Positions 42,214-64,000 of a stretch of DNA of 64,000 bases are shown piece after piece. The notes beneath the pieces are model-generated. The model was given only the letters and a program-made list of their open reading frames with translations. It searched no databases and had not been told where the DNA came from. The DNA is from Citrus sinensis (taxonomy: Eukaryota > Streptophyta > Magnoliopsida > Sapindales > Rutaceae): assembly GCF_022201045.2 (NCBI RefSeq), contig NC_068559.1, positions 3,756,501-3,820,500 on the forward strand, given 5' to 3'. Numbering within the stretch: the stretch's first letter is position 1; each line of letters starts with the position of its first letter. The translations under genes were made by a program, and so were the position numbers.

Positions 42214-45200
42214 ATTAAAGAAAACAGTTCTTTCTTGCTTTAGTCTTCTAGAATAGCAGGCGTTTATATATAGACAAGAATGATTTATCCTATTATTAAG
42301 GCCAACTTTTTTTTTTATCTGAATCATAAGGTGGTCTTGAGTGGGCTCTAACTATGAGAGGTACTTTTAAACTCATACCACAACCCAGACTAATTCCCGC
42401 TTGCATTCTAGACTAATCCTTGTTTGCACTGGGTCGGTCCGTAAGGGATAAAGTGCTGGCCAAAGTGGTGACTCCATACGAGAGCAGAGCTTGAACCCCT
42501 AACCTCTTTTAAGGAGTGAGAGTACCGAACTACTCACACCAACCAAATTTAGTTTTAAGGGCAACTTTTTTGTTGGCACATAATGTGTAGAGTTGTTTTG
42601 TTAATCCATTATTTTAGCTATACCTTCCTTTTTCCTCTAATTTGGTTATGAGCGTCTCCTTTATGCACCTTTTTTTTTTTTTTTTAATATATACGACTGG
42701 TCGGCCTTTTTGTTAAATATATATTAATTTCTTTGTCATTATACAATTGCATGAAGTTGAAGAGGTGAGCCAAGTGATGACTTCACGCGAGGCGGACACT
42801 TCTTTTATTTCAAATATATTTTAGATCATGGGGGCCTGCAATTGCTTGACTGGACTTTGCTGTCTAACTTTAGTCATTCATCTTTGATGGCACAAAAGTT
42901 TGATTTTGCCTCACGAAAATTAGGGAACCAGAGACCACCGTTCCTGAGTTTGAAAAGTAAGACAAAATGGACAAAACACTTATATTTTTTAAGATTATCT
43001 TTTAATTTTTTTCTAGAATTAATGGATTTAATGATAAAAGAAGTATTGTAATTGAACACCCTGAACTTGATTTAATATGTTTTATCGACCTCATGAGTGG
43101 TTAGCATAATGACTAGCTAGACTCATAATTTGCGTAGGGTTTGAGTGCACTTTCTCATTCATATTCGAATAATATTAATAAGACGTAAGAATTTGATAAT
43201 ATTTTCTGCAATTTTAATTGCGACCAAAATTGTTAATAACAGTTTTTTGTGTGCGTCATAATACTACAAGGTTTCTTTTAGTATTGTGGTGTTGACTTTA
43301 CGACTGTTGTAAATTGTAAGTTGAAATAATAAATTGATGGTGTTTAGTAAATGTGATTTTTGAAATCTATATTTTTGATAAAATACTAAAATAATAAGAT
43401 AAAATATTTATTGAAACAATTTTATGGGAGGAGAGGTAGCGTTTACATTTTGATTTTGAGTGAGAATCTTGAGATTAGGAGTATGGAGTGGGAGTGGGAG
43501 TGAGAGTATATTATTTACTTACATTAGAATGAGAGCATGAAATTAAAATAAGAATCCAATTTATGTGTATACATAGTCTTGAGTTGGGAGTAAATGATTT
43601 CAAATTACAATTTTACTCTTATTTAAAGAATTGTAGATTTTAATTACAAAATTAATAAAAAAATATATTTGCAAAATAAAATATTTATTTTATTATATTT
43701 GTAAATTAATAATTATTATTAATATTCTTAATTATGTAAATCATAATTTTTTATTAATTTTAATTTTAATTATGTAAATAAAAAATTATTATTAAGAGTA
43801 ACATAAATGAAACATTATTATTAATAATATAATATAAAATTAATATTTTCTTAGGATAAAATATTGATTATTATTAATTACTAATATTAAATAAATATAG
43901 TAATATTATATTTTCAAATAAAAATTGTATATAGTAATATTATTAATTCACTATGAGTATAATAATATTATTTTTAAGTAATTTTAACTTAAAATCAATG
44001 TAAATTATTATTTTTAATAAATATAATAATATTATATTTAAATATGTTTAATATTATTATTTTTAATACATATACTTTATAAAATAATATGATAATATTA
44101 TTTTAAATAAATATGATATTATTTATTTTATTTTATTAAATAATATTTATTTTATTTTATTAAATAATATTTATTTTATTTTATTAAATAATATTTATTT
44201 TATTTATTGAATTTCTCCCACTCACATGAAGGAATGTGCAAAAAAAGTGAACTCCACGGATTGTGATTCTCATTCTCTTTTTAAAATTGGTAAGTAAATA
44301 ATGAAGTGGGAGAAATTCAGATCAGATTCCTCCAAATCTAGCATAATTGAAGAAACTAACAATATGCTTTATCCCTTTCTTTTTTTAATGAAATGGAAAA
44401 AAAAAATTGAAACTAGATGTTGATTGGATTACAAGCTTGGGAACGACTTGGCAACCCCCTTAATACAAAACAACTTAACCAGTCATACATATGAAACACT
44501 AACGCATCATTTGTCATCCGCTTTAAGAAATTAATTTGCTAACCACCTACAATTTGTTCCACATAAACTTTTTTTCTTTTTTAAATCAACAATTTTTTGC
44601 CTCAGGTTTGGGTACATTCCCAAACCTCTTTGTCGTTTTGGGCAACAACTTTTTTTATTCAAAGCTCGTGGAAATGAGAAAACTTTGACAATTTCTTCCT
44701 ACATTAACATTAGTTATCAATGTTGAAAATCAGTCAATTAAGCTCCAGAAGTAAAATTAGTCAATCCCCATGTTTCTTTTGTCATTCTATTTTACTTTTC
44801 AACTTATGAGAAGATAATTATAAAAAATAAATTATATTTTTCCCATTAAGAGATAAAAATTTGAAAGAGAGCATTGAAATTTGAACAGCATGCCAACACC
44901 ATCGCGATAAAATCAATTTTGTTTATTCGCTGCATAATAACACTGTAACACACCAAAACGACAAATTGTTCATGCACAATATTATCATTTTTCTTATCCT
45001 AGTGTCATTGTGGGGTTCAATGTCTTCTTTCTATTTGGAATGGATTTAAAACTATGGTGCCAGCATTACAAAATGTTTTTAAATTATGATCATGTTTGAA
45101 ATTGAGATACTATAACTTTTAAGTTATAGCTGCCGTAAAAAAAAAGATGTAATTATGAAATAAAAATTAATAATATATAATATATAAATTTTAAATAATA

Positions 45201-45418
45201 ATTTTAACAAATTTATTAAAAATATAATAAATCTTTCATCATATAAGTGAAAAATCATTTCAACATATCTTGCAAGATACAATAATTAGTATTTATTAAA
45301 CACTTTAATGTTGTACCTTTTAAATTACAACTGTCTAACTTCAATTCTAATCGCCCCCTAAATACAAGTGTTTGGGGTTTGATTCTTCAACAATATTTTG
45401 TTATAGTGTATGATTCTT
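42214..45418. other. AT-rich spacer with repeats
   Basis: No gene seen. A 23-24-bp unit (TTTATTTTATTTTATTAAAT plus AATA) repeats several times at about 44125-44210. The region 43470-44330 may itself be an element, since ATTATTTACTTAC occurs in inverted orientation near both edges, but no target duplication was found. Near 45083-45363 lies an AT-rich block bordered by TTGAAATTGAGAT and ACTTCAATTCTAA that resembles a block at about 63667-63930. Confidence 0.4.
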
Positions 45419-45899: not shown

Positions 45900-48536
45900 A
45901 TGGATTCAGTTGTACTTGAATTGTGTTACGATGGTTGGTGGGAGACATTAGAGAATGGCTATATGGAGTACGTGAATAGTAAAAATCGAGCTTTTTTGGT
46001 TGGAAAAAATTACCTGTTTGATCAGTTATTGGCAAGAGTATACGAGGTGTTAAAAATAAATCCTAATGACTATAGTATCACAATGAAGACAACTTTGAGG
46101 TCTAGTAACACATTATATCGTATATGTGCAATGCCCATGGATATATGTGATGATGAAATGGTAAGGGTTGTGTTGCATATGGCATCTGATGTAGCTAATT
46201 TTGGATGCATTCCTATATTCGTGACCACATCACCTCGAGTTCCGAGCGAAGGTATTGAGCCACATGTCGATACAGAAACTTCGTTTAGAGCAAATACGTC
46301 TGGCCCCGATAATGATGAAGAGGTGTTGCCAAGGACAATATCGCTGCAGCAATATTACTCTCCAATCCACGACAATTATGACAACAATGATGATAATGGC
46401 GTTACGTTACAGGATGTTGGAGCAACGGTATTTCCAATAACAACGTCGTTGGAGCAACAATATTCTCTGTATCACAACAATGATTTTCGGGACAATGATG
46501 ATTTTCATAATGAGACAGAGGGGGATAATGTTTGTGCAGAACCTTCTAATAATACAAGGCGGGGCACTCGTTTCAATAATGATGGTGATGATGGAGGAGC
46601 CGATCCTTCGAATGTTCCGTCGTTTCAGGATGAGGATGAGTGTGAAGACAATACTCCTGTGAATAACAGAGGCAATAGACCTATTCCTTCTATGGTTCGA
46701 TCGAGAAGGAGAATTGACCCCCTTACAAGTCTTGCTCCAACTTTACCTTCGAACATGGTTGCTCCAAGCTTTGTTAGCAGTTGTGACTAAGATGATATCA
46801 GCGTGGGTAAGCTATTTGCTGAGAAGAATGAGCTTATATTACAACTACGCAAGGTGGCCTTTAGAGATAAGTTTGATTTCAAGATTGCACGATCTACTAC
46901 GACACGTTTCGAGGCTCACTGTTGTTCAGAATCATGTAAATGGCGTATTCGAGCAACTAGAAGTTCGAACGAGCAACATGTTCCTTGGGTGGTGAAGAGA
47001 ATTGATAATGTACACACTTGTCATAATGAGGTATTGGTTGATGGACGTCATCAAGTAAGGAGCCGGGTTGTCGGTCATATTATCGCAGAAAAATATATTC
47101 AAGATAAGAGGATTTATACTCCCAATGACATAAGAGCAGATATGCAACAGGAATACGGTGTTCAGTTAACATACCAGCAGGCATATAGGGCGAGAGAAGT
47201 TGGTCTTGAAATAGTACGCGGCAACCCTGCAGAGTCATACAACTTGCTCCCTAAATACTCTCACGTACTAACTACAGCGAATGAGGGTACAGTCACTCAC
47301 CTCGAGCAGGATGGAGATGGTAATTTCTTGTACTATTTTGTAGCACTCGGATCTTCCATCAAGGGGTTTATGCAGTACATTCGGCCTGTCATTGCTGTAG
47401 ATGGTACTCATCTGAAGGGATTATATCGTGGAAGCATATTCGTGGCAACATGTCTTGATGGTAACAATCAATTGTATCCGTTAGCCATTGGGATCATGGA
47501 TTCAGAAAATAATGATGCTTGGGAATGGTTTATGATGAAGTTACATGGAGTGATTGGTGATAGACCTGAGTTGGTAATTATCTCTGATCGATGCACTGCC
47601 ATAAGGAGAGCCGTTCTTAAAGTATTTCACAATGCAACTCATGGTGTTTGTTTTTACCACGTCAAAGGTAACATTAAGTCACAATTTAGAATGTCCAAAG
47701 CTCTTTGGGATGAATTTGAGCCTGCCTTTATTAATGCAGCAAAAGCATATGGCCACGAGGAATTTAAGAGACAACTTGAAGGGTTGTGGATGATCCACTC
47801 GGGTGCGGCTGATTACCTAGAAAATAATGTCGGTACGTGTAATTGGGCAAGGTCTCAGTTTCAAGGTAGGAGGTACAACATTCTTACCACCAACATCGCG
47901 GAGAGTGTTAATGCTTTCATGAGGGAACCTCGAAAATTTCGTGTTACTCATCTTGTTGATCACTTCAGGAAAACATTGCAGCAATGGTTTTATGATAGAA
48001 AAATTGTGGCTGAATCAATGACTACTCGGCTAACAACATGGGCGGATAAAATAGTCACTGAGAGGAGAATTATAGCTGAAAGAATGATAGTTCGGCCGGT
48101 GTCTCCGCATCGCTTTCAAGTTATAGGCGGTGGGCTTAAGGAAGGGTTGGTTGACTTGCAAAAGAGAACTTGCTCCTGCAGAGTGTTTCAGCTTGATCAG
48201 CTTGTGTGTGCTCATGCAATTGCGGCGTGTCTAACACACCGGGTGGATTTTATTAACCTTTGCTCGGACTTTTACACTACAGAATCGTTGGCGATGGCTT
48301 ATGCACAACCAGTGGAGCCAGTTGGTGATGTGGCTGATTGGGAAGTTCCAGATGAAATTCAGGAGCTGCAGGTATACCCACCAGTTGAGGCACCGCCACC
48401 TGGACGTCGTAAAGAGCGCAGAATACCCTCGGCTGGCGAGGACGTTGACCGGCGAACTGTAAGATGCGGCCGGTGTCATGAACTTGGCCATAATCGTAAG
48501 CGATGTAAGAATCCTATTGCGTCGACTCGAAGTTAG
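45900..48536 (+). CDS. MULE (MURA-type) transposase, interrupted by one stop
   Basis: The frame runs 879 codons from an ATG at 45900, just after an acceptor-like TTTCAG at 45890-45895, with one in-frame TAA at 46788-46790. The first 296 codons hold a PB1-like N-terminal region (VVLELCYDGWWETLENGYME) and an acidic asparagine-rich linker. After the stop come the MuDR DNA-binding domain (KNELILQLRKVAFRDKFDFK ... CCSESCKWRIRA), the MULE catalytic domain with Asp in AVDGTH (47400), Asp in ISDRC (47586) and Glu in TNIAESVNA (47901), a SWIM zinc finger (CSCRVFQLDQLVCAH, about 48170) and a C-terminal CCHC knuckle (CGRCHELGHNRKRC). It would cut and rejoin the element's ends in the nucleus. The stop replaces what could have been CAA by a single C-to-T change; it is otherwise intact. 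Confidence 0.93.
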
Positions 48537-48755
48537 TTGTATTTTGTGTGTTATTCGTTGGTTAAAACTATTATTGTTTTTGTGTTACGTTGGTTAAAAC
48601 TGTTATTGTTTTTTGTATTTCGTTGGTTAAAATTGTTATTATTCATAAAACTTTATTTTATTTTAAAGTTCAAAATGTGAGGCATTAAAATTATATAAAA
48701 TTAAGTGCGGAAATAAAAAAAATGTAAATTTCAACATTGAAATTACTACATAGGT

Positions 48756-51700
48756 CTACAATATAATATCGTCATTAAATATATCAACCGCAATCTTCTT
48801 TCTAAAGTACTCGACATGACTAGCGTTAAACTCCAACCTAAGCCCGAACATTAAATACATCGTAACCATCAATACAAAAACACCGCAATCGCCAGTGCCT
48901 CTTTCTTGTTGCGGCGCGCTCTTAACTGCGATAACTTTCCACGAGTCTTCACTCCGCAACTCAGGTCGTATATTGTAGAAGCCAACATATTCCAACCATC
49001 GAGGGAATATAACTTCAAGTGGCTTGAATTTCAACTTGTACCTTTTGTCGTCGCGAAATGTGAGTAATGAGTCATAAATCCAGACTTTATTTTTCCGAAA
49101 GTCAACTCGTGCTAGTACCCAATGCGCGCCGTCCAAGTTAACAGGGATAAGTAACTGCATATAAAAATTAAAAAACATGTTCGTTATATATGAAATTGAA
49201 ATACAACAAAGAAAAAACAACTCCTCGAATATTTTCAGTATAGAACATGTGAAATGTAATAAAATACATACTATATCGACATCCGTCATTGATTTTGACA
49301 TTGTGTGCTGTCGCCCACAAAGATAACTATTCAAGCGGTCGTCGAATACCATTGAATCGACTGCACAATTCCCGTTATTCCATAACTGATTCAAGAACAC
49401 CTAGTACATAGATAGCCAAGAAATGCATAAATTAATAAAACTTAAAGGCAATAATTAAAGAAATTAAATAGTATTTATAAGTTTTGTCGGCACGTTACCC
49501 AAAAAAATGTGTCCGTATGTGTGACACGTTGGAGTAAGGCATTTGGATACTGCCGTTGTTTCTCGCTAATCAAGCGGAGATACTCGTGAATATGCTGTAG
49601 AGAAACAGAAATATTACGATTTTAAAAAAAAAATTATACACAAATCCACAACAGTATACACCACGAGGAAAATATAAATACCTCATCGCCTAGCCATCCC
49701 ATCGAAGCTGTCCCCAAAATTATTTGAAAGAATGACCGCGGATGCTGGACGTTCCGGCGGACTCTGATATCACCAGTGAACCATCGATCAAACTCAGCAA
49801 ACAAACTAGAGTCCTCCAATCCTCTCAGTGGATTTACATCCACACTCGTACTCATGTCAATCGCATGCTCCATGATTTGGGGTCGAGGTAACCTCCGGAC
49901 GTTCTGTCCTCACCTGACTGGAGGAATCATGTAAGGACTGTTATAAACATACGACGGTATGTACACGCAGCCGAACTTACTAACGCCCGGAGGCACCTCT
50001 GTGAACACCTGCACGCTCTCCCCACTAACATCCCCGTAGAAACTAACCAATGACGTGGGCGTAGACAAATTTTCATTGCCCACGTTAGTATACACTCCAT
50101 AGTCATCCGGGGCCTGTACAATCGCCAAAAAGAACATATTAAATAATTATCAAATTAAAAGTTAAACGAACATAATTATTTAATTTAAATTAGCTTACCG
50201 CATACGAGCGTGCAGTGGGAGAATCCTTATTTGGACGTTTAGAAAATGTGTCGATGAAGCCAACAACGGTTTCTTTAAAATCTTTTAATTCTGACTTTAT
50301 TTCATACACGTTACGATCAATCTTATCCAGCCGTCGTCGTACGTAATCATTAAACTGCTTTGTCCTCGACTAATACAAAAGAAAAAAATAAAACTTTAGA
50401 ATAACAATAAAAAAATAATAACAACCAAATTGAAAAATATCGTATATTATTTATAACCTCAGAATCTCGTGCGTCATCAGAGTTGTCTGTTTGCTGCGGG
50501 TGGTCATCAACAGCCACCTCATCCTCAAAAGTGTCATGACGCTGCTCAAAAGTGTCATGACGCTGCTCAAAAGTGTCATGACGCTGCTCTGGTATTGGGT
50601 TTGGTATGTCGTCATGATTGTCATGCTCGTCCGATTGTCTTGTAACCGACGGCATCGCGTTGATTGAGGGTTGGTGCTGTATAAAGTATCATTTAAAATT
50701 ACTAAATGAAAAGTCAAAAATTTCGATAAAAAAATTTTTTGTACTTACAGTATACCGACCTTATGAACCCAGTCTGGAATGCTTGGCAAGTAATCCTTCA
50801 CAGAGAGCCAATATTTTCTGCTACTCTCCTTTGAATTTGGCTCAAGAGTTTGTAAAACGTCCGTCTGCCATAAATTTAATTGAAAATTTTAAGTAAGTAT
50901 ACCCAACTTAAATTTAGTAAAGTTAAAAAAATAAGTAATACATATTACTTACAAGACGAGATTCGTCGTTGAAGAACGAATAAACCTCCGCAAAGTTGAT
51001 TCTCGAAGACGACATAGGCTTCCATTGCAGAATGCGGGGAATCTTACTCTTCGTTTTGACGACCCATGTTGATGGTAACCCTCCGATTGCTTCATAAATC
51101 CAAGCCTACAACAACCAAAGTGAAAAATCAAATAAAACAACTATCAAATATTTAATACTATAAAACTTATTAATAAACAAAAAAAAGCACCTGCACCCCA
51201 GACGTAAATCCATAAAGATTGTATTTTTCAATATTATGATCTGGATTTTTCAACCGAGTCTACTTAAATTTCTCGTCTTTTTCGAACAGTGCATTGTCAA
51301 GACTCTCGTAAATCATTTCCCACGACAATAGACCCCATGGACGCTTTCGGAAGTACTGAATATCATCAACTTGGTCAAGCCAATCGAAATTAATTTGACA
51401 GTGATTTTTTCTTGCATTTAGTAATCTGTCCGCAAAATAAAACAGCGCAATCTTTAATGCGTCCATATCGTCTATTTCCTCGAAATTCAACTCCTTAAAT
51501 ACGGCATCAAATTGCTTCACATTAATCTTACGATGCACACCACCAAAATACGTATTCCGTAGCCTCTGCTCCATTTCATCATTTTTTTCATTGGTATCAA
51601 CACCAAATGAAAGTCCAGTAACCAAGCACCATTCGACAATTGACAAGCGAATCAAATGCTTACCAATTTGAAACCATAACTGATCCTCACGGCTATCTTC

Positions 51701-51949
51701 TTCATGGGCCACTTGACGCAGTAAAAGATTATGCAAAATTACCCCACTAAATGGAAAACTTCGACACTCCAAGAAATGCCCAAATATATCCTTTTTGAAC
51801 ATACTTAACTGCCGCTTTGTTAATTTTTCCTCGATAGCTTTTACGACCGAAGATAACATACACATGCTCGAAATTCGACCAGGAAAGTGATCAGCATAAC
51901 GAAAATACATCTTGCCTACTTCAATATCTGGTGATTCTGATTTCGCCAT
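48756..51949 (-). CDS. DUF1985 / ULP1-like C48 protease gene of the MULE, decayed
   Basis: Exons read on the minus strand: 51949-51191, 51105-50953, 50864-50760, 50676-50458, 50369-50199, 50113-49682, 49594-49499, 49400-49272 and 49154-48756. Exon 1 is the DUF1985 region (for example FKKDIFGHFLECRSFPFSG). A middle part is acidic with a triple EQRHDTF repeat, then a probable coiled coil (RRRLDKIDRNVYEIKSELKD). The C-terminal domain is a C48 (SUMO/ULP-type) cysteine protease with His in GAHWVLARVDF (49124-49122), Asp in VWIYDS (49073-49071) and Cys in GTGDCGVFVL (48887-48885). Such proteases cleave SUMO or similar modifiers; their use by MULEs is unknown. In-frame TAG near 51260 and TGA near 49911 interrupt the frame, so the full protein is not made. 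Confidence 0.85.
50525..50587 (-). repeat. 21-bp x 3 coding repeat in the ULP-like gene
   Basis: Three perfect 21-bp units encode EQRHDTF three times in the acidic linker. Perfect identity points to recent expansion. Confidence 0.9.
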
Positions 51950-52030
51950 GTATCTGTAATATTTATAAAATTATTACATTATATTTACAGAAATAAAAAA
52001 TTAACTCGTTAAAAAAAAAACTCTAATTTT

Positions 52031-52110
52031 TTGGTGCGACAGGCGCCTGTCGCTCCAAAAAACTGGTGCGACAGCGTCTGCTGTCGCACCAAATTTGGTG
52101 CGACTGCAGG
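52031..52110. repeat. palindrome cluster, right side of the large MULE
   Basis: Palindromes with the same arms as the left cluster: 52031-52056 (TGGTGCGACAGG / CCTGTCGCTCCA), 52064-52091 (TGGTGCGACAG / CTGTCGCACCA with a longer loop), and a half-site TTGGTGCGAC at 52095-52104. They lie 80-160 bp before the start of the ULP-like gene, mirroring the left cluster. A very GC-rich stretch (52110-52170) follows. Confidence 0.88.
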
Positions 52111-52597
52111 CCGCGCATGGGCGCGCGCTGCTGCCCAGCGATGGGCGCCGGCGCGCGCCCTGCCCCCCTCCCTTCCCACCCCCAAAATTAAGCGCAATCA
52201 CTCCAAAATAAAAAACAGTACTCCCAAACACCACCAACCACCACAAACATCATCACCACCATTATCAATCTCAAGCTATAACTATTATTATTCTAAAATC
52301 TCATTTTAAATTAATGAAAATAAGAAAAATGACTAACCTAGGTTTTGTTGAAGGTTGTGGATCGTAGATCGGATGCCGGTGAGAGATGGAGCCGCCGCCG
52401 ACGAGGGTTGATGTCGCCGCCGATGATGGGAGTTGGATCGGTTTGGGAGAGATGAGAGAAAGGGTGTGTTGGGGAAGAGATGAGGGAGGGGTATTTTGGA
52501 CTCAAATGTTGTTTAATGGCTAATGTTGATAGAAATATTTTTGGGGGGTTAAGATGAAAAAAAGCAAAGTTTTTTTGGTTATTAGTGTAAATTTCCC

Positions 52598-53656
52598 ATG
52601 ATTCTTCAACAGTGTTTTGGAAAATAAAGTCAACAGTATTTTAAAAAGAAATATTTTTCTGTTATTTTAAAAAATTAAAAATGCACTTTAAATTTTTCTT
52701 TAAAACGGTATCGAGCGTTTTTTTTTTATTTAAAAGAAAAAGAAATGCATTTTGTTCCGGGTATATAGTACGAGTGAAAGGAGACCATGGACTTTCAATC
52801 ACACACCACGCCAGTGAGCCGCCAAGTGGATACTTCTAGAGCGATGTGAAGTGAGGTTTTGACCTCTTGATTATTATGTCTAAGCCGTCGGATTTGTCTG
52901 AGGTCCCATTGACCAAACGACGAAGATTCTCCTTTGACCTTTGGCTTCCAGATAGACCAGAAGCCGTCGGATTTGCATGCTTCGGATGGTCAACTTTCGA
53001 AATGGATGCATCGCCAATGAGGAATGCTACGCCACGTGGAGAAAATTATAACAATTATTTTTTTTCCATTTTCTCTAAATTTCATTTTTTAACGATTCGT
53101 TTTCTCTAATTTATAGTTTAAACAAGTTGATGCGAGTTCCTACATTTTGTTTTTGTTTTTGTTTTGTCAAATAATTATTAAATAACTGGAGAATGGAAAA
53201 TAAATTCATTTTTATTTATTTCTCTATAAGCAATTCGGTGCTGTTTGATGAAACAAAATTTTGTTTTGTAAAATAAAAATTACTAGAAATTGCTATGGTT
53301 ATTAAACTACTTCTCCTCAAACACTAATTATTAATTTGTTTCAGTATTTTCCAAAAAAGAAAACCAATTTATCTTAGTTAATTAGAAGCTTCTCAACAAA
53401 TAATCACAATTTAGAATGGTGGGTCGAATTTGTGTTGAATCTCAAATAAATTATGTCGAAATTTCACTAATTCGTTTTCGACTTTTGTATTAAACAATTA
53501 TAAAATTAATGACCCAGACGAAACAATATTTTTTTTAAAAAAAAGTGAATTTGCGTCCATGCCCATATTTACTAAAAATCATCAAATTGCCCCAGATATT
53601 CATAAATCATCATTCCACATCCAAATAGTGAAGTAGATTAAAATAATAATAATGGT
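52598..53656. other. spacer between the MULE and the ADSS promoter
   Basis: No gene is seen. The MULE target site itself lies in a short local duplication, since GATTCTTCAACA occurs both before the element (45381-45392) and across its right junction (52600-52611). Confidence 0.5.
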
Positions 53657-53967
53657 AAAATTTTGGGTAACCTGTGCTGTAACTGTAGTATCGTGTTACA
53701 GTTATGGGTCAGGATACAGTATAATTATGGTACTGTGCTACAGTTGCATCAGTTATTGGATCTACTCAAATAAATAGGGTCCACTTAAATAAGTAAAAAT
53801 TCAACGATTGGGTACAACTGTGATACGGTACCATAATTACACTACAATTTTATCATACAGTTATATACAGCTGTTAGATGTTAATATACTCTACTAATTC
53901 AAGTTCATCTGCCTGATGTAACTGTAGTACGGTACTACAGTTGTACCGTAGCCTGATCCAAAACTTT
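53657..53967. mobile_element. MITE-like element upstream of adenylosuccinate synthetase
   Basis: About 310 bp with imperfect inverted ends beginning TTTTGGGTAACC (left) and TTTTGGATCAGG (right, reversed). Both ends carry a palindromic AACTGTAGTA(C/T)-type motif; the right copy at 53920-53942 is a perfect palindrome with arms AACTGTAGTAC. Related half-sites recur inside. Target duplication was not resolved. It ends about 40 bp before the EF-1alpha-like leader. Confidence 0.65.
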
Positions 53968-54004
53968 CAGCTTTTACGCACTCTCACTTCACTTGCCTGC
54001 TTGT

Positions 54005-54600
54005 CTAGTCTCTTTGTCTCTCCCGTGCGGCTAAGAGTTTTAGCAGAACTCCTTCAGGTCCGATTCTTCTCGTTTAATTGTTCTTTTTAATTTTAATTAA
54101 TTAATTTATTATTAAGTAAGTTTGTTTGGTTGTATTTATTTGGAATTTTGTTTGAATTTGATTACTCTATAGTTTCAGTTTTTCCTACGATTTTCAGTTC
54201 TTTTGTATTAAAATTGTTGTCTGATCTGATTCTTACTGATTTTATCAATTGGTTTTTGTAAATTTGTGGCTCGAATCATCATATGTATACATTCTGAGTG
54301 GGTTGGATGTATTCCTTCTACCATTAATTTGTGTCATATATACTGAATCTGATGTGGCATGTGTCGATATTGCTGAAAATTCTTTCACCTGATTTTGTAG
54401 ATACGTGTCTTGACACTGGTGTGATTATAAATGTATAAGTTGCGTTAACGTTAATACAATTGCTTTCGTTGTTCTCGAAGGTTTAGTTTATATGATAAAG
54501 TTAAAATGTTGAAATTCAGTGTCCTTATAAGTTTGAGCTGCATCATTTAGACATTGTTGAGTTTGTGAATTATACTTAATACCTATCTCTCTCAAAAGCC
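54005..54600 (+). promoter_or_regulatory. EF-1alpha-like leader exon and leader intron upstream of ADSS
   Basis: Three blocks match the 5' region of the EF-1alpha gene in order. 54005-54075 (GTGCGGCTAAGAGTTTTAGC then CCTTCAGGTCC) matches 58638-58710. 54155-54360 (GTCTGATCTGATTC and GGGTTGGATGT) matches 59139-59320. 54430-54530 (GTATAAGTTGC, TATATGATAAAGTTAAA) matches 59402-59500. In EF-1alpha this is the untranslated first exon plus leader intron, with donor CTCTTTCAG|GTCC; the same donor position is kept here as CTCCTTCAG|GTCC. The telo-box of the parent is altered (AGGGTTTTAG to AGAGTTTTAG). It most likely forms the leader of the ADSS transcript. Confidence 0.8.
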
Positions 54601-54671
54601 CTCCCCTTCTTTTTCTCTCTTGGCTCTCACTTACTTTTCGTTATTCACTTGAACAAGACATTTAATGCGGC

Positions 54672-57198
<2,527 letters not shown>

Positions 57199-57495: not shown

Positions 57496-58588
57496 ATATT
57501 TGCTGCTGCTTGGTACTCCGTTAAAAATAGTAGGAGATAAAGAAGCTTGGAAAGTGCTCTGAGAATTTCTCCTTTTAACTAGATTTTTCATTTTTGGGTA
57601 CTTTGTTAATGGTCGCACTAAATTTGTGGGCTAGGGCCTTGACTTGTGTTTATAGGCTTAGGAGTTTTTCGCCTAGTTAATTAGTTTACGTTCACAAAAT
57701 TGCTCTGGTCGTCTGTTGTATTTATTAGTAGACAGTAGTAATGCTATATGATTTGACGTACAGGTACAAAGTTTGCATCTGAGCTTATGTGGTATATGAT
57801 GTGGCTTCATTACAAATTGTTATGTATTGAGTGATTGTTTATTTTATCTTCCACCGTCAGGAAGTGATTTTTCTGAAGTAACATTTTTGCCGGATTAGTT
57901 ATTTTGTTAGTACAATACGACTAATTTCTTAATAGTACATTCACGACACCCAATTTGAATATTTCTAAATAGAAATGAGTAAGACTTATGCTCTCAAATA
58001 TTTATGAGGAAAACGTTTGCACCTATGGGAAGGAGGCAGGTACCAAGTAATCACTGATCACATTGATACATTTGGTTAAAAACAACGTAAAAGCTCATTG
58101 GATTTTGGTTTTAGATCCCATTAACACAGGGGTTTCGGTAACTGATTTGTGTGTTTGGGGAAAATTGGGATTGAGTTAGAAAATCAGCGGGGTGTATTTA
58201 GTTCTATCCTGCTTTCAAGTGAGGGCCACATCCTATTGCCAACTCACATCAAGGTAGGGTCCACACGAATAATCGAACATACTTCCTGGCCAGGACTTCG
58301 TGGTGCTTGCCTGTCTCTCAAATATATATCCGAAACATACACACGCTCCTCAGACGCGCGTGTTCACTGATTCCTTGGACATTAGTCCTTACAACGATAA
58401 TTCGCGAAACGCACATCGAAGCGAGTGGGATAAGAGGGACAAAAAAAAAAAAAAAAAAAAAGAACGAATCCCAATCTTCCACCACCATTATAAACTTACA
58501 ATATTAGACTTTAGTAAAAAGGAGGACACGTAGGTAATTCCAATAGCACGTAAGGGTATATTCGGAAACAGAAGATATAAAATTCTCG
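57496..58588. other. ADSS 3' region and EF-1alpha upstream region
   Basis: No gene is seen. A run of about 20 A lies at 58441-58460. The last 200 bp form the likely EF-1alpha promoter. Confidence 0.5.
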
Positions 58589-59350
58589 TATAAAACTAGC
58601 CAACAAACCCTATACGAGATATCAGCTCTCTCTGTTCTGTCCAGTCTCTTTCTATCGCTTGCGGCTAGGGTTTTAGCAGAGCTCTTTCAGGTCCAATTTT
58701 TCTTCTTTTTGATGAGTGAACAAATTAAATTTTTTAATTGCATTTCTGTTTATTTTTCTATAAGTTAATTTATGACGAGAAGTTCATTTGATTCTTGCGA
58801 TTTGAATTGTGTTCGTTGTTTTGATGTAGTACGAATGCTTCCTTCTTGTATTCAATGATTTTTGTCAATATGTTGATCTTGAATCGTTTATTTGAACATA
58901 TGTTGGCTTTGAATCGTTTAATATCTGATTTTATTTTCATTATAGATGATTTTGGCATCTTTTTAAATAACATATGCGCATTCTATTTTCCTTTTCGGTT
59001 ATTTGCTCTAGTTAGATTAACTTTTTAATTTTTATATACGTTCGGTGATTTTGTGCCTTAGCTGATTTAAAAAATAATAATAATCTATGATGTTTTTTTT
59101 TATTATTGATCAGATTCTGATTTTGTTTGATTTTCAATTTGATTAGTCTGTTGTTTCAGTTTTTGTAATTATTTTCTGCTCTTTTGGATTAAAAATGTTG
59201 ATTGATCTGATTCATACTGTGTTGATATATTTTATTTTTGTAATTTTTGGTTTGAATTATAACATGATTACCTGCTGAATATGTTGGATGTGTGTCCCTT
59301 CTTCTATATATCTGTGTGATACAAACAGAGTTTACAATCTTTTTCTTGAT

Positions 59351-59383
<33 letters not shown>

Positions 59384-59604
59384 CTTATTAGCTTGTAATT
59401 ATGTGTATAAGTTGCCACTACTGTTAAAACAATTGTTTGGGTCCCTGAAGGCTCGTTTGATATGATACAGTTAAATGAAGATTAAATTGTCCTTCAAATT
59501 TTGGGCTAAATTGTTTGAGATATTGTTGAAGTTTGTGTTCTGCCCAAGCAAATTTTTCTGACTTGAACTTTTCCTTGGATACAGTTTTAAGCAAATACTT
59601 TATC
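58589..59604 (+). promoter_or_regulatory. EF-1alpha core promoter, leader exon and leader intron
   Basis: A TATA box (TATAAAA, 58589-58595) is followed by telo-type motifs (AAACCCTA at about 58605 and AGGGTTTTAG at about 58667). The untranslated first exon ends CTCTTTCAG|GTCC near 58690. The leader intron of about 900 bp ends at GGATACAG near 59584, just before the start codon at 59605. It contains a GT microsatellite (59355-59382). A long first intron in the 5' UTR is standard for plant EF-1alpha genes and usually boosts expression. Confidence 0.85.
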
Positions 59605-61137
59605 ATGGGCAAGGAGAAGTTTCATATCAATATTGTGGTTATTGGCCATGTCGACTCTGGGAAGTCAACCACCACCGGTCACTTGATCTACAAGCTTGGA
59701 GGTATTGACAAGCGTGTGATTGAGCGGTTTGAGAAGGAAGCTGCTGAGATGAACAAGAGATCATTCAAGTACGCATGGGTGCTTGACAAGCTCAAGGCTG
59801 AGCGTGAGCGTGGTATCACCATTGATATTGCTTTGTGGAAGTTCGAGACCACGAAGTACTACTGCACTGTCATTGATGCCCCTGGACATCGTGACTTTAT
59901 TAAGAACATGATTACCGGTACTTCTCAGGCTGATTGTGCTGTCCTTATCATCGACTCCACCACTGGTGGTTTTGAAGCTGGTATCTCTAAGGATGGGCAG
60001 ACCAGAGAGCACGCTCTACTTGCTTTCACCCTTGGTGTGAAGCAAATGATTTGTTGCTGTAACAAGGTAATGCTTGATACCTTAATAGTACTTACAATCT
60101 CGGCTTTGTGCACCTGATTCCAGCATCTCGTTTTTCACATTATTTTTTATACAGTTGCCTGTTCTATATTTCTAATTTCTCTAGAATCTCAGATGGCACT
60201 TGCTGACATATTTATTCCTTATCTGCTGATATATTTATTTTTTATGTTGGTACAGATGGATGCCACCACTCCCAAGTATTCAAAGGCAAGATATGATGAA
60301 ATTGTTAAGGAAGTCTCTTCCTACTTGAAGAAGGTTGGCTACAACCCAGATAAGATTCCATTTGTCCCAATCTCTGGATTTGAGGGTGATAACATGATTG
60401 AGAGGTCCACGAACCTTGACTGGTACAAGGGCCCAACCCTTCTTGAAGCTCTTGACCAGATCAATGAACCCAAGAGACCAACAGACAAGCCTCTCCGTCT
60501 CCCCCTTCAGGATGTCTACAAGATTGGTGGTATTGGAACTGTCCCTGTTGGCCGTGTTGAAACTGGTGTACTCAAGCCCGGTATGGTAGTCACATTCGGT
60601 CCGTCTGGATTGACTACGGAAGTTAAGTCGGTTGAGATGCACCATGAGTCTCTCCAGGAGGCACTTCCTGGTGATAATGTGGGGTTCAACGTTAAGAATG
60701 TTTCAGTGAAGGATCTTAAGCGTGGTTACGTTGCATCTAACTCCAAGGACGATCCCGCCAAGGGGGCATCCAACTTCACCTCCCAAGTTATCATCATGAA
60801 CCACCCTGGCCAGATTGGAAACGGTTATGCACCTGTTCTTGATTGCCACACTTCCCACATAGCTGTCAAGTTTGCTGAAATCTTGACCAAGATTGACAGG
60901 CGATCTGGTAAGGAGCTGGAGAAGGAGCCCAAATTCTTAAAGAATGGTGATGCTGGGTTTGTTAAGATGATTCCCACCAAGCCTATGGTTGTGGAAACTT
61001 TCTCCGAATATCCCCCACTTGGTCGTTTTGCTGTGAGAGACATGCGCCAGACCGTCGCTGTTGGAGTCATCAAGAGCGTGGACAAGAAGGATCCATCTGG
61101 AGCCAAGGTAACCAAGTCTGCTGTGAAGAAGAAGTGA
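59605..61137 (+). CDS. EF1A: translation elongation factor EF-1alpha (eEF1A)
   Basis: Two coding exons, 59605-60066 and 60256-61137, give 447 residues, the usual plant length. It delivers aminoacyl-tRNA to the ribosome as a GTP complex in the cytosol. G1 GHVDSGKS is at 14-21, G3 DAPGH at 91-95 and G4 NKMD at 153-156, which is split by the intron after Lys154. Domains 2 and 3 are complete ([36 protein letters not shown]) and the C-terminus is lysine-rich. I chose the ATG at 59605 because an acceptor lies 20 bp upstream and the family always starts MGKEK. A canonical AATAAA signal follows at 61186. Confidence 0.98.
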
Positions 61138-62101
61138 ACTGTGCTGGTATCTTTGTCTGCAAGTAATGTCTATAGGCGTCATCACAATAAAGATTGTGTT
61201 CTTTTTAGGCATAAATGTGTTGGATGTTTGGGTCGTCAATTTGCTGGTTATAATTACAATTCGTCACCATCGACAAGAGACTTTTGTTCACAGAACTGGG
61301 TTCTTGATCGGCGGTGGCGAGATTACTGTATTGAGTCTATTTTTGTTGTCCATGTCATGTTCAAACTTGGATATTTTGTAAGCAGCTCAGGAGTTTTAGG
61401 TCTCTGCTGAGCTCCTTAAGATGTTGTTTGTTGATGTTTTATGTTCTATCTAGTTTGCCATTTTCAAATATTTTTGGCTTCTGGAGATCTTTTATTCTTT
61501 TCTTCATGGTTGCAAGATACGGTGGTGGACTTTACAGCCAACTGCAATAATCCTTTCAAATCACTACTAGTCACAGACCATTTACAGATGAAAATGGTTA
61601 ATAAACATAATTATATATGACATATCCTTGTTTACTTGGAATGGTTGCCATTTGTTAGTTTCAGGTTCTTTTCAATTTACCAAACTTTTTAAAATACATT
61701 GCTAATTTCCAATTACACGCTCACTTGATGGGCATACTGAGACGAGTTTTGAAATGAGTGGCATCGCTTCTATAGTTGTTATAAGATTTGTAATCTTATA
61801 ATGATGATCATTTCATCTGTCATCATGCGATGCCAGCGTCAATAGTTCAACTGCTATAAATTGATATGGATAAATATGCATAATAGCCTCCCTTATTCAA
61901 TGCAATGTTATTGTAAGTATTAACTAGCAAACCTGATTGAGCAAAATTTTAAGGCATGTAGCTTTTGATATAATAAATAAACTAACGAATCAAAACCATT
62001 TAAATTTGATATCTCACTAATAAAAAAGCAAGGTTGAAATGCCCACGCAGACATTAACTGATGCAGGGCTTATCAAGAGTACACTTAACATATAATTTCA
62101 A
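61138..62101. other. convergent 3' regions of EF-1alpha and the TMEM70-like gene
   Basis: EF-1alpha 3' UTR with AATAAA at 61186-61191 and probably further weak signals. The minus-strand gene to the right also ends here. No gene or element is evident in between. Confidence 0.55.
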
Positions 62102-62767: not shown

Positions 62768-64000
62768 AACAATGAGTATAGCAACAACAGAAACAAAAGT
62801 TTGGATATTTTAATCATCAATTAGGTGAAGAATGCTTGATGTATCTAGGAGTTCTGAGTTTAAGAACAGACTTAATGGTAAACATGAGGTAATCAAAGAT
62901 GAAATCTCTTTCAGGGATAAGCACAACAAAATGTGCATTTCACATAATAAGCATCAAGAAAGGGACAAATACATGTTCAGCTACACATAGAAAAAGTAAA
63001 ATAGCAAAGGAAGTCACAGCATTCAGAATTACTACGTAATACAAAAGAATGAAGGCTAGGTAGGACATCCATTTAAATAAACCTCAGGGAACAGAAGAGG
63101 CTCTTAAGATATTGGAGATTAGCCCTTCATAAAAATATATAATAAGAATACGTCATCTCATGTCATTCACTTAAAAATATATGGAGAAAAACATCACCAT
63201 ATGTTGTGGTATATTCATTCTATGCATAGTTTATTCAGATAAGAGTGTAGAGAGATTCCCTATATGTATGATGTGATTATTTTCATTACCAAATACAAAA
63301 TCAAAGACTATCTACATTCCTAAGATGAATGCAGAACAGTACAACGGCAATTAAAGAAACATCACCACACAAAGTATTATTGATATGTTTACCCAACTTT
63401 TGCCAGAAGGCACGACATATGCCAAGTCGACATGAGTTTTCCCTTCTTTTTCTATCTAAAAATTAAGGTTGTAGCGATATATACTCCAACTTGTGCAGCG
63501 TAGAGATAGTAGAAATATTAACGAAGAGTAAACTGACCACAACAATAGAAATTTGAAAATAGAAAGCTTAAAACATAAAAGTGATTGTTTCATAACTCCT
63601 AATGTCTAAAGGTGCATGAGATCGAAATGAGACCAGAAACAAGAAAACAAACAGTGTATTAAATAAGGTGTGCTTCACCTTTTAAGCCACAGTGGTTGTG
63701 GTAAAAGAAAAAAAAATTGCAACTATAAAATAAAAGTTGATAATGTGTAGTAAATATAATAAATAATAATTTCAAAAAAATAATAAAGATATTACAGATT
63801 TTTCATCGTACAAGCGTGAGTTAAAATCATCTTAACTTTTAAGACAAAGCAGCGAGCATTTATCAAACAGTGCAGTAACTTTACAGCTGCTCAATCTCAA
63901 TACCAAATATGATATCTAAATTGCACAAAAAAACTGTTGAAATTGAACCATTCATTTCAATCTCTAAATAACAAAATAAATAAACGAAAAGAAAATTTTC
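62768..64000. other. upstream region or first intron of the TMEM70-like gene
   Basis: AT-rich sequence without a clear exon. The block at about 63667-63930 shares its edge motifs and AT-rich core with 45083-45363 and may be a second copy of one MITE family, but the match is loose. Confidence 0.35.

Follow-up and report, generated by a model that had tools for sequence, protein, structure and literature searches.

A diverged duplicate of the leader exon and leader intron of EF-1alpha upstream of an adenylosuccinate synthetase gene, and its putative use as a chimeric leader

The genes for adenylosuccinate synthetase (ADSS) and the translation factor EF-1alpha are same-strand neighbours in the 64,000-nt stretch of DNA analysed here (hereafter the window), and both are read as intact. 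Their arrangement raises the question of whether the sequence directly before ADSS derives from the EF-1alpha leader and, if so, whether ADSS still uses it. ADSS lies at 54672..57198 (+ strand), where translation reveals a frame of 488 aa, open throughout, in four coding exons (54672-54962, 55687-56379, 56571-56882 and 57028-57198). In phmmer searches against PDB, the protein matched 1dj2_A best (E 5e-264) and 1dj3_A next (E 1e-241), both of them plant enzymes, and its residues 52-488 align to 1dj2 without a gap. The third coding intron (56883-57027), placed via the protein reading frame, is of the non-canonical GC-AG type (AAG|GCAAGT).

Downstream, the EF-1alpha coding region (59605..61137, + strand; exons 59605-60066 and 60256-61137) is likewise open throughout its 447 aa by translation, and residues 1-445 match eEF1A structures (PDB 5lzs, E 1e-232, phmmer). 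It is preceded on the same strand by a core promoter at 58576..58612, with TATAAAA at 58576 and 58589 and the telo-box AAACCCTA at 58605, and by an untranslated leader exon at 58613..58690, the start of which was placed by the TATA-spacing rule and which lies in a region free of ATG (58600-58688). A predicted leader intron of 894 nt follows (58691..59584, + strand; CAG|GTCC...GATACAG|TTTT) and represents the source family of the copy described below.

The window as a whole is AT-rich (35% GC) and has a seemingly plant-like gene content, and Rfam at gathering thresholds and ARAGORN returned nothing over its length. At 46791-51970, an ORF for a MULE transposase with a SWIM zinc finger (+ strand) precedes ORFs for a Ulp1 protease and for DUF1985 (- strand), which suggests a Mutator-type element carrying a Ulp1-like gene, of the kind named Kaonashi. 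Furthermore, a segment of about 130 nt at 63708-63836 is repeated at 45138-45264 (74%, E 4e-15) and partly, in inverted orientation, at 44109-44184 (E 3e-4); it is probably an interspersed repeat.

A local duplicate of the EF-1alpha leader before ADSS

When 53001-55500 was compared with 58001-61500 by BLASTN, three same-strand collinear HSPs were obtained: 54002-54070 with 58638-58703 (57/69 identical, E 4e-13), 54151-54346 with 59132-59329 (148/199, E 5e-30) and 54420-54567 with 59394-59537 (111/153, E 2e-11). The same three blocks were recovered with the whole 64-kb window as subject. The copy is offset from its parent by 4.6 kb, its significant similarity begins at 54002 and ends at 54567, and over 400 aligned sites it is 76-86% identical to the EF-1alpha leader exon and leader intron. 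Two parts can be delimited on the + strand: a diverged copy of the untranslated leader exon at 54002..54057 (57 of 66 aligned sites identical, ATG-free), which is the putative first exon of ADSS, and a diverged, shortened copy of the leader intron at 54058..54567 (two HSPs, a T-A skew and the donor CAG|GTCC), which is the putative ADSS leader intron with an uncertain 3' end at 54550, 54598 or 54657.

Both regions are T-rich, a composition that could in principle create such similarity by chance. The best collinear chain nevertheless scored 245 bits, compared with a maximum of 57.5 in 300 dinucleotide-preserving shuffles and an equal best value, 57.5 bits, among 314 other windows of 723 nt searched on both strands. 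The best single match behaved in the same way, with 120 bits observed against 34.6 in the shuffles and 32.8 in the other windows. Because the chain so exceeds these controls, the sequence before ADSS is a genuine local duplicate of the leader exon and intron of EF-1alpha, and chance similarity is refuted, its remaining probability being practically nil. The sequence-only reading of this DNA had proposed three collinear blocks matching the EF-1alpha leader 4.6 kb downstream; the pairwise alignment bears this out and extends beyond low-complexity T-rich sequence, with the parental segment still nearby and homologous beyond chance.

The two sequences differ at 9/66 sites in the leader exon block and at 47/195 and 28/139 sites in the two intron blocks, giving a K2P distance of 0.248 over the 400 sites; the lower value of the exon is non-significant (9/66 versus 75/334, p 0.14). 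With assumed substitution rates of 13, 7, 5 or 1.5e-9 per site per year, this distance corresponds to a rough age of 9.5, 17.7, 24.8 or 82.5 million years, which may be too young because the aligned blocks are the best-conserved parts. Between the first and second blocks, 428 nt of parent intron (58704-59131) are opposed by 80 nt of the copy, over which matches are short and scattered. Either the copy has therefore lost or the parent has gained a net of about 350 nt.

Splice sites, telo-box and promoter of the copy

The donor context CTCYTTCAG|GTCCRATT is common to both sequences, reading GAACTCCTTCAG|GTCCGATTCTTCT in the copy and GAGCTCTTTCAG|GTCCAATTTTTCT in the parent. The copy carries G at position +5 (CTCCTTCAG|GTCCGATT), whereas the parent has A (CTCTTTCAG|GTCCAATT), which is farther from the consensus. 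Splice sites were scored by an approximate matrix and expressed as percentiles among GTs or AGs; on this scale the copy donor ranks at 97.5 and the parent donor at 91.2. The kept donor is not the sole option, since the copy also contains TAA|GTAAGT at 54116, whose score equals that of the parent donor.

Acceptors present a less favourable picture. The five acceptors of EF-1alpha and ADSS scored as genuine reach the 95-99.9 percentile of AGs, whereas the candidates ending at 54550, 54598 and 54657 reach the 76th, 41st and 70th, respectively. The AG at 54560 ranks at the 19th percentile and one within the coding region, at 54686, at the 47th; matrix scoring found no strong acceptor upstream of the ADSS start codon. 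The AG at 54550 corresponds to a one-base difference, TTTGAG in the parent being TTTAG in the copy, and is a permissible acceptor. The EF-1alpha acceptor itself (59584|85) has no recognisable counterpart in the copy, the similarity ending at parent position 59537. What follows the copy, at 54568..54671 (+ strand), is the pyrimidine-rich ADSS-side 5' leader, which contains the weak candidate acceptors 54598 and 54657 and, in direct comparison, matches the end of the EF-1alpha intron weakly (20 nt at 80%, E 0.048). It also contains an out-of-frame ATG at 54665, seven bases 5' of the ADSS start, which opens a 40-codon frame overlapping the coding region and could reduce ADSS translation.

The leader telo-box of the parent, TAGGGTTT at 58666, is changed to TAAGAGTTT in the copy, where its position is 54032..54041 (+ strand; TAGGGTTTT to TAAGAGTTTT). 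For the EF-1alpha core promoter (TATA at 58576/58589, telo-box at 58605), no recognisable counterpart was found before ADSS: a direct comparison of 58500-58640 with 53400-54005 gave only matches of 8-13 nt at E 1.6 or worse. The nearest TATAWA stands at 53862, over 100 nt 5' of the putative ADSS transcript start. A fold-back, MITE-like element some 310 nt long, built of degenerate inverted repeats nested within one another, was recognised at about 53657..53967 by self-complementary alignment. Its inner arms lie within 53700-53965 (E 1e-18), its outer arms pair 53657-53704 with 53919-53967 (E 2e-5), and its right end is 34 nt upstream of the copied leader; no second copy of it was detected in the window at E 0.01.

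These observations delimit what ADSS could have gained. The sequence-only reading had described a kept splice-donor context and a mutated telo-box, and both are present as described. It had further claimed that ADSS acquired the strong leader and intron of EF-1alpha. This claim holds in so far as the leader exon, a reduced intron and the donor are recognisable; it is unsupported for the promoter and the acceptor of EF-1alpha, for the net 350 nt of intron that are missing and for the weakness of the acceptors available. As the EF-1alpha promoter is unrecognisable before ADSS, the strong promoter was not acquired in recognisable form, and ADSS has at most a copied leader exon and a shortened intron.

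Function and origin of the duplicate

The reading favoured here, to which we assign a probability of roughly 55% on the basis of sequence, is that ADSS bears a putative spliced chimeric leader derived from the EF-1alpha copy, since the donor is kept, the T-bias is kept and upstream ATGs are almost confined to the putative intron. In the parent, all 19 ATGs of 58600-59604 lie inside the leader intron and none in exons. In the copy (54002-54671), the putative exon is devoid of ATGs, seven of the eight fall in the putative intron (54283-54506), and the eighth is that at 54665, which with any of the candidate acceptors would stand directly ahead of the ADSS start codon. The T-A skew is 0.29 in 54058-54598 versus 0.33 in the EF-1alpha leader intron; it amounts to 0.27-0.32 in three of the four coding introns (0.08 in ADSS intron 1) and to -0.02 to 0.05 in four non-genic stretches tried, and two unaligned parts of the copy intron keep it at 0.40 and 0.27. 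This T-bias is weak evidence for intron status, because a skew of 0.29 is reached by 2.0% of 1270 overlapping windows (leader regions included), the leader exons are themselves T-biased (0.38 and 0.51) and 54568-54598 is without skew (-0.04).

A motif with a described stimulating effect, TTNGATYTG, has no such effect upstream of the transcription start according to the same report (PMC6760150). With one mismatch allowed, it occurs 10 times in the EF-1alpha intron versus 1.6 expected, four of these matches starting in 58704-59131, and 3 times in the copy versus 1.0 expected (P 0.08); the exact motif was found in neither. If ADSS transcripts start beyond 54567, the copy would therefore be without an effect of this kind.

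Such a downstream start is envisaged if the copy is instead a non-functional relic, which we consider possible but less likely. ADSS would then have its own promoter in the pyrimidine-rich 54568-54671, and the EF-1alpha-like DNA would be decaying and act at most as a remote promoter region. The C+T-rich composition of 54599-54671 (0.73), as in many plant 5' untranslated regions, agrees with this, as do the weak candidate acceptors, the proximity of the fold-back element to the copy, and the lack of recognisable counterparts to the EF-1alpha TATA, upstream telo-box and acceptor. The kept donor, the T-bias that extends into two unaligned parts, the ATG-free putative exon and the absence of any TATAWA within 60 nt upstream of 54599 argue against it.

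Under the favoured reading of a spliced chimeric leader, the history of the locus may be outlined as follows. Long ago, the 5' end of EF-1alpha (leader exon and most of the leader intron) would have been duplicated locally to a position directly before ADSS; we infer this direction. A single tandem duplication of the ADSS-to-EF-1alpha segment could have joined the leader intron of EF-1alpha to the 5' untranslated region of ADSS, thereby fusing the EF-1alpha leader to ADSS directly, with the outer ADSS copy being lost later. The copy would then have diverged and ended up lacking, in one stretch, about 350 nt relative to the parent intron, and its upstream promoter may have been displaced or replaced, perhaps by the fold-back element. 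ADSS transcripts would start at about 53.98-54.01 kb and be spliced from 54057 onto one of the candidate acceptors that end at 54550, 54598 and 54657, and the chimeric leader intron may still provide mild intron-mediated enhancement. The simplest route, and one with fewer steps, is a single, incomplete tandem duplication whose breakpoint lay within the leader intron of EF-1alpha. By tblastn, no further copies were detected in the window below E 2.9 for EF-1alpha or E 0.6 for ADSS, and the ADSS-EF-1alpha spacer (57.2-58.6 kb) gave only A/T-tract matches to 48000-54005; the remains of the outer duplicate or of a second breakpoint, not found in the window, may have decayed or moved.

Other routes were weighed against this one; the degrees of belief attached to the alternatives are not mutually exclusive, as part of them address function and part address origin. 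Plants are known to carry tandem EF-1alpha genes, and a complete tandem gene could have lost its coding part by a deletion reaching up to ADSS, or ADSS could have moved in behind it. The copy does retain the leader side, with everything 3' of the intron gone, but this route requires at least two events and an EF-1alpha/ADSS/EF-1alpha order, and the next tblastn hit to the EF-1alpha coding sequence, at E 2.9, provides no remnant elsewhere in the window. We therefore regard it as rather unlikely; these were the two origins offered by the sequence-only reading, and the window shows no vestige of either. With its three coding introns, ADSS is unlikely to be a simple retrocopy. Pack-MULEs can alter the 5' ends of genes, and the MULE transposase ORF with Ulp1 and DUF1985 ORFs alongside, at 46.8-52 kb, would fit a Pack-MULE-like element that picked up the 5' end of EF-1alpha and brought it before ADSS. 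This capture is rejected as highly improbable: the flanks 53901-54005 and 54566-54680 contain no convincing terminal inverted repeat, the best match being 23 nt long at 74% identity (E 1.5), and that the source is the adjacent gene on the same strand speaks for local duplication.

A bolder version of the favoured reading is unlikely as a whole. It holds that housekeeping ADSS has used a spliced leader captured from adjacent EF-1alpha for perhaps 10 million to tens of millions of years, with its original promoter replaced and a new acceptor at 54550 created by a one-base change, so that purine supply would be partly coupled to translation-factor-type expression across a plant lineage. If ADSS does use the copied leader, the locus would constitute a natural leader-swap experiment, in which a parent intron and its decayed duplicate lie 4.6 kb apart before two genes of different roles, and comparing the two would reveal what portions of an enhancing leader intron persist after transfer and how splicing is rescued after acceptor loss. 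If the copy is a relic, the local duplication is an unremarkable one and a warning for those who annotate promoters.

Comparison with known systems

Among the matches listed in a search of titles and abstract openings of open-licence papers, neither an EF-1alpha leader before ADSS nor such a leader or promoter capture was described. Scanned for by exact pattern, the leader was found neither in viral contigs nor in bacterial or archaeal genome contigs, and an ADSS-like locus found by protein scan in viral contigs was set aside, its 43% identity being too distant for a close plant relative.

A report on the soybean eEF1A gene GmScreamM8 describes a leader intron that begins 77 bp after the transcription start and has an interior of at least 702 bp; its removal cut expression by 60%, three partial deletions kept part of the enhancement, and a variant lacking most of the intron interior was unspliced and very weakly active (PMC5091777). 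EF-1alpha in the window has the same predicted layout of a short untranslated exon and a long leader intron, and the ADSS copy retains the exon, the donor and part of the intron. Unlike GmScreamM8 as described there, ADSS is preceded by no recognisable EF-1alpha promoter or acceptor, its putative intron is shorter, motif enrichment is not clear and enhancement is putative. As partial deletions of GmScreamM8 still enhance, the shortened ADSS copy could still act, whereas the unspliced GmScreamM8 variant speaks against a spliced ADSS leader; carrying either result over is an extrapolation.

MULEs are described as capturing sequences as Pack-MULEs (PMC8277862), and the ADSS copy resembles such capture in that a gene fragment was moved; it differs in lacking convincing terminal repeats in the flanks compared. 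A further parallel is with duplication fusions of parts of genes from one cluster, in which a coding sequence gains a new 5' regulatory region. Here, unlike in those fusions, the ADSS coding sequence is apparently unchanged, only an untranslated leader is involved and there is one fused copy in the window. This type of event is already known, and the EF-1alpha leader before ADSS provides a further example.
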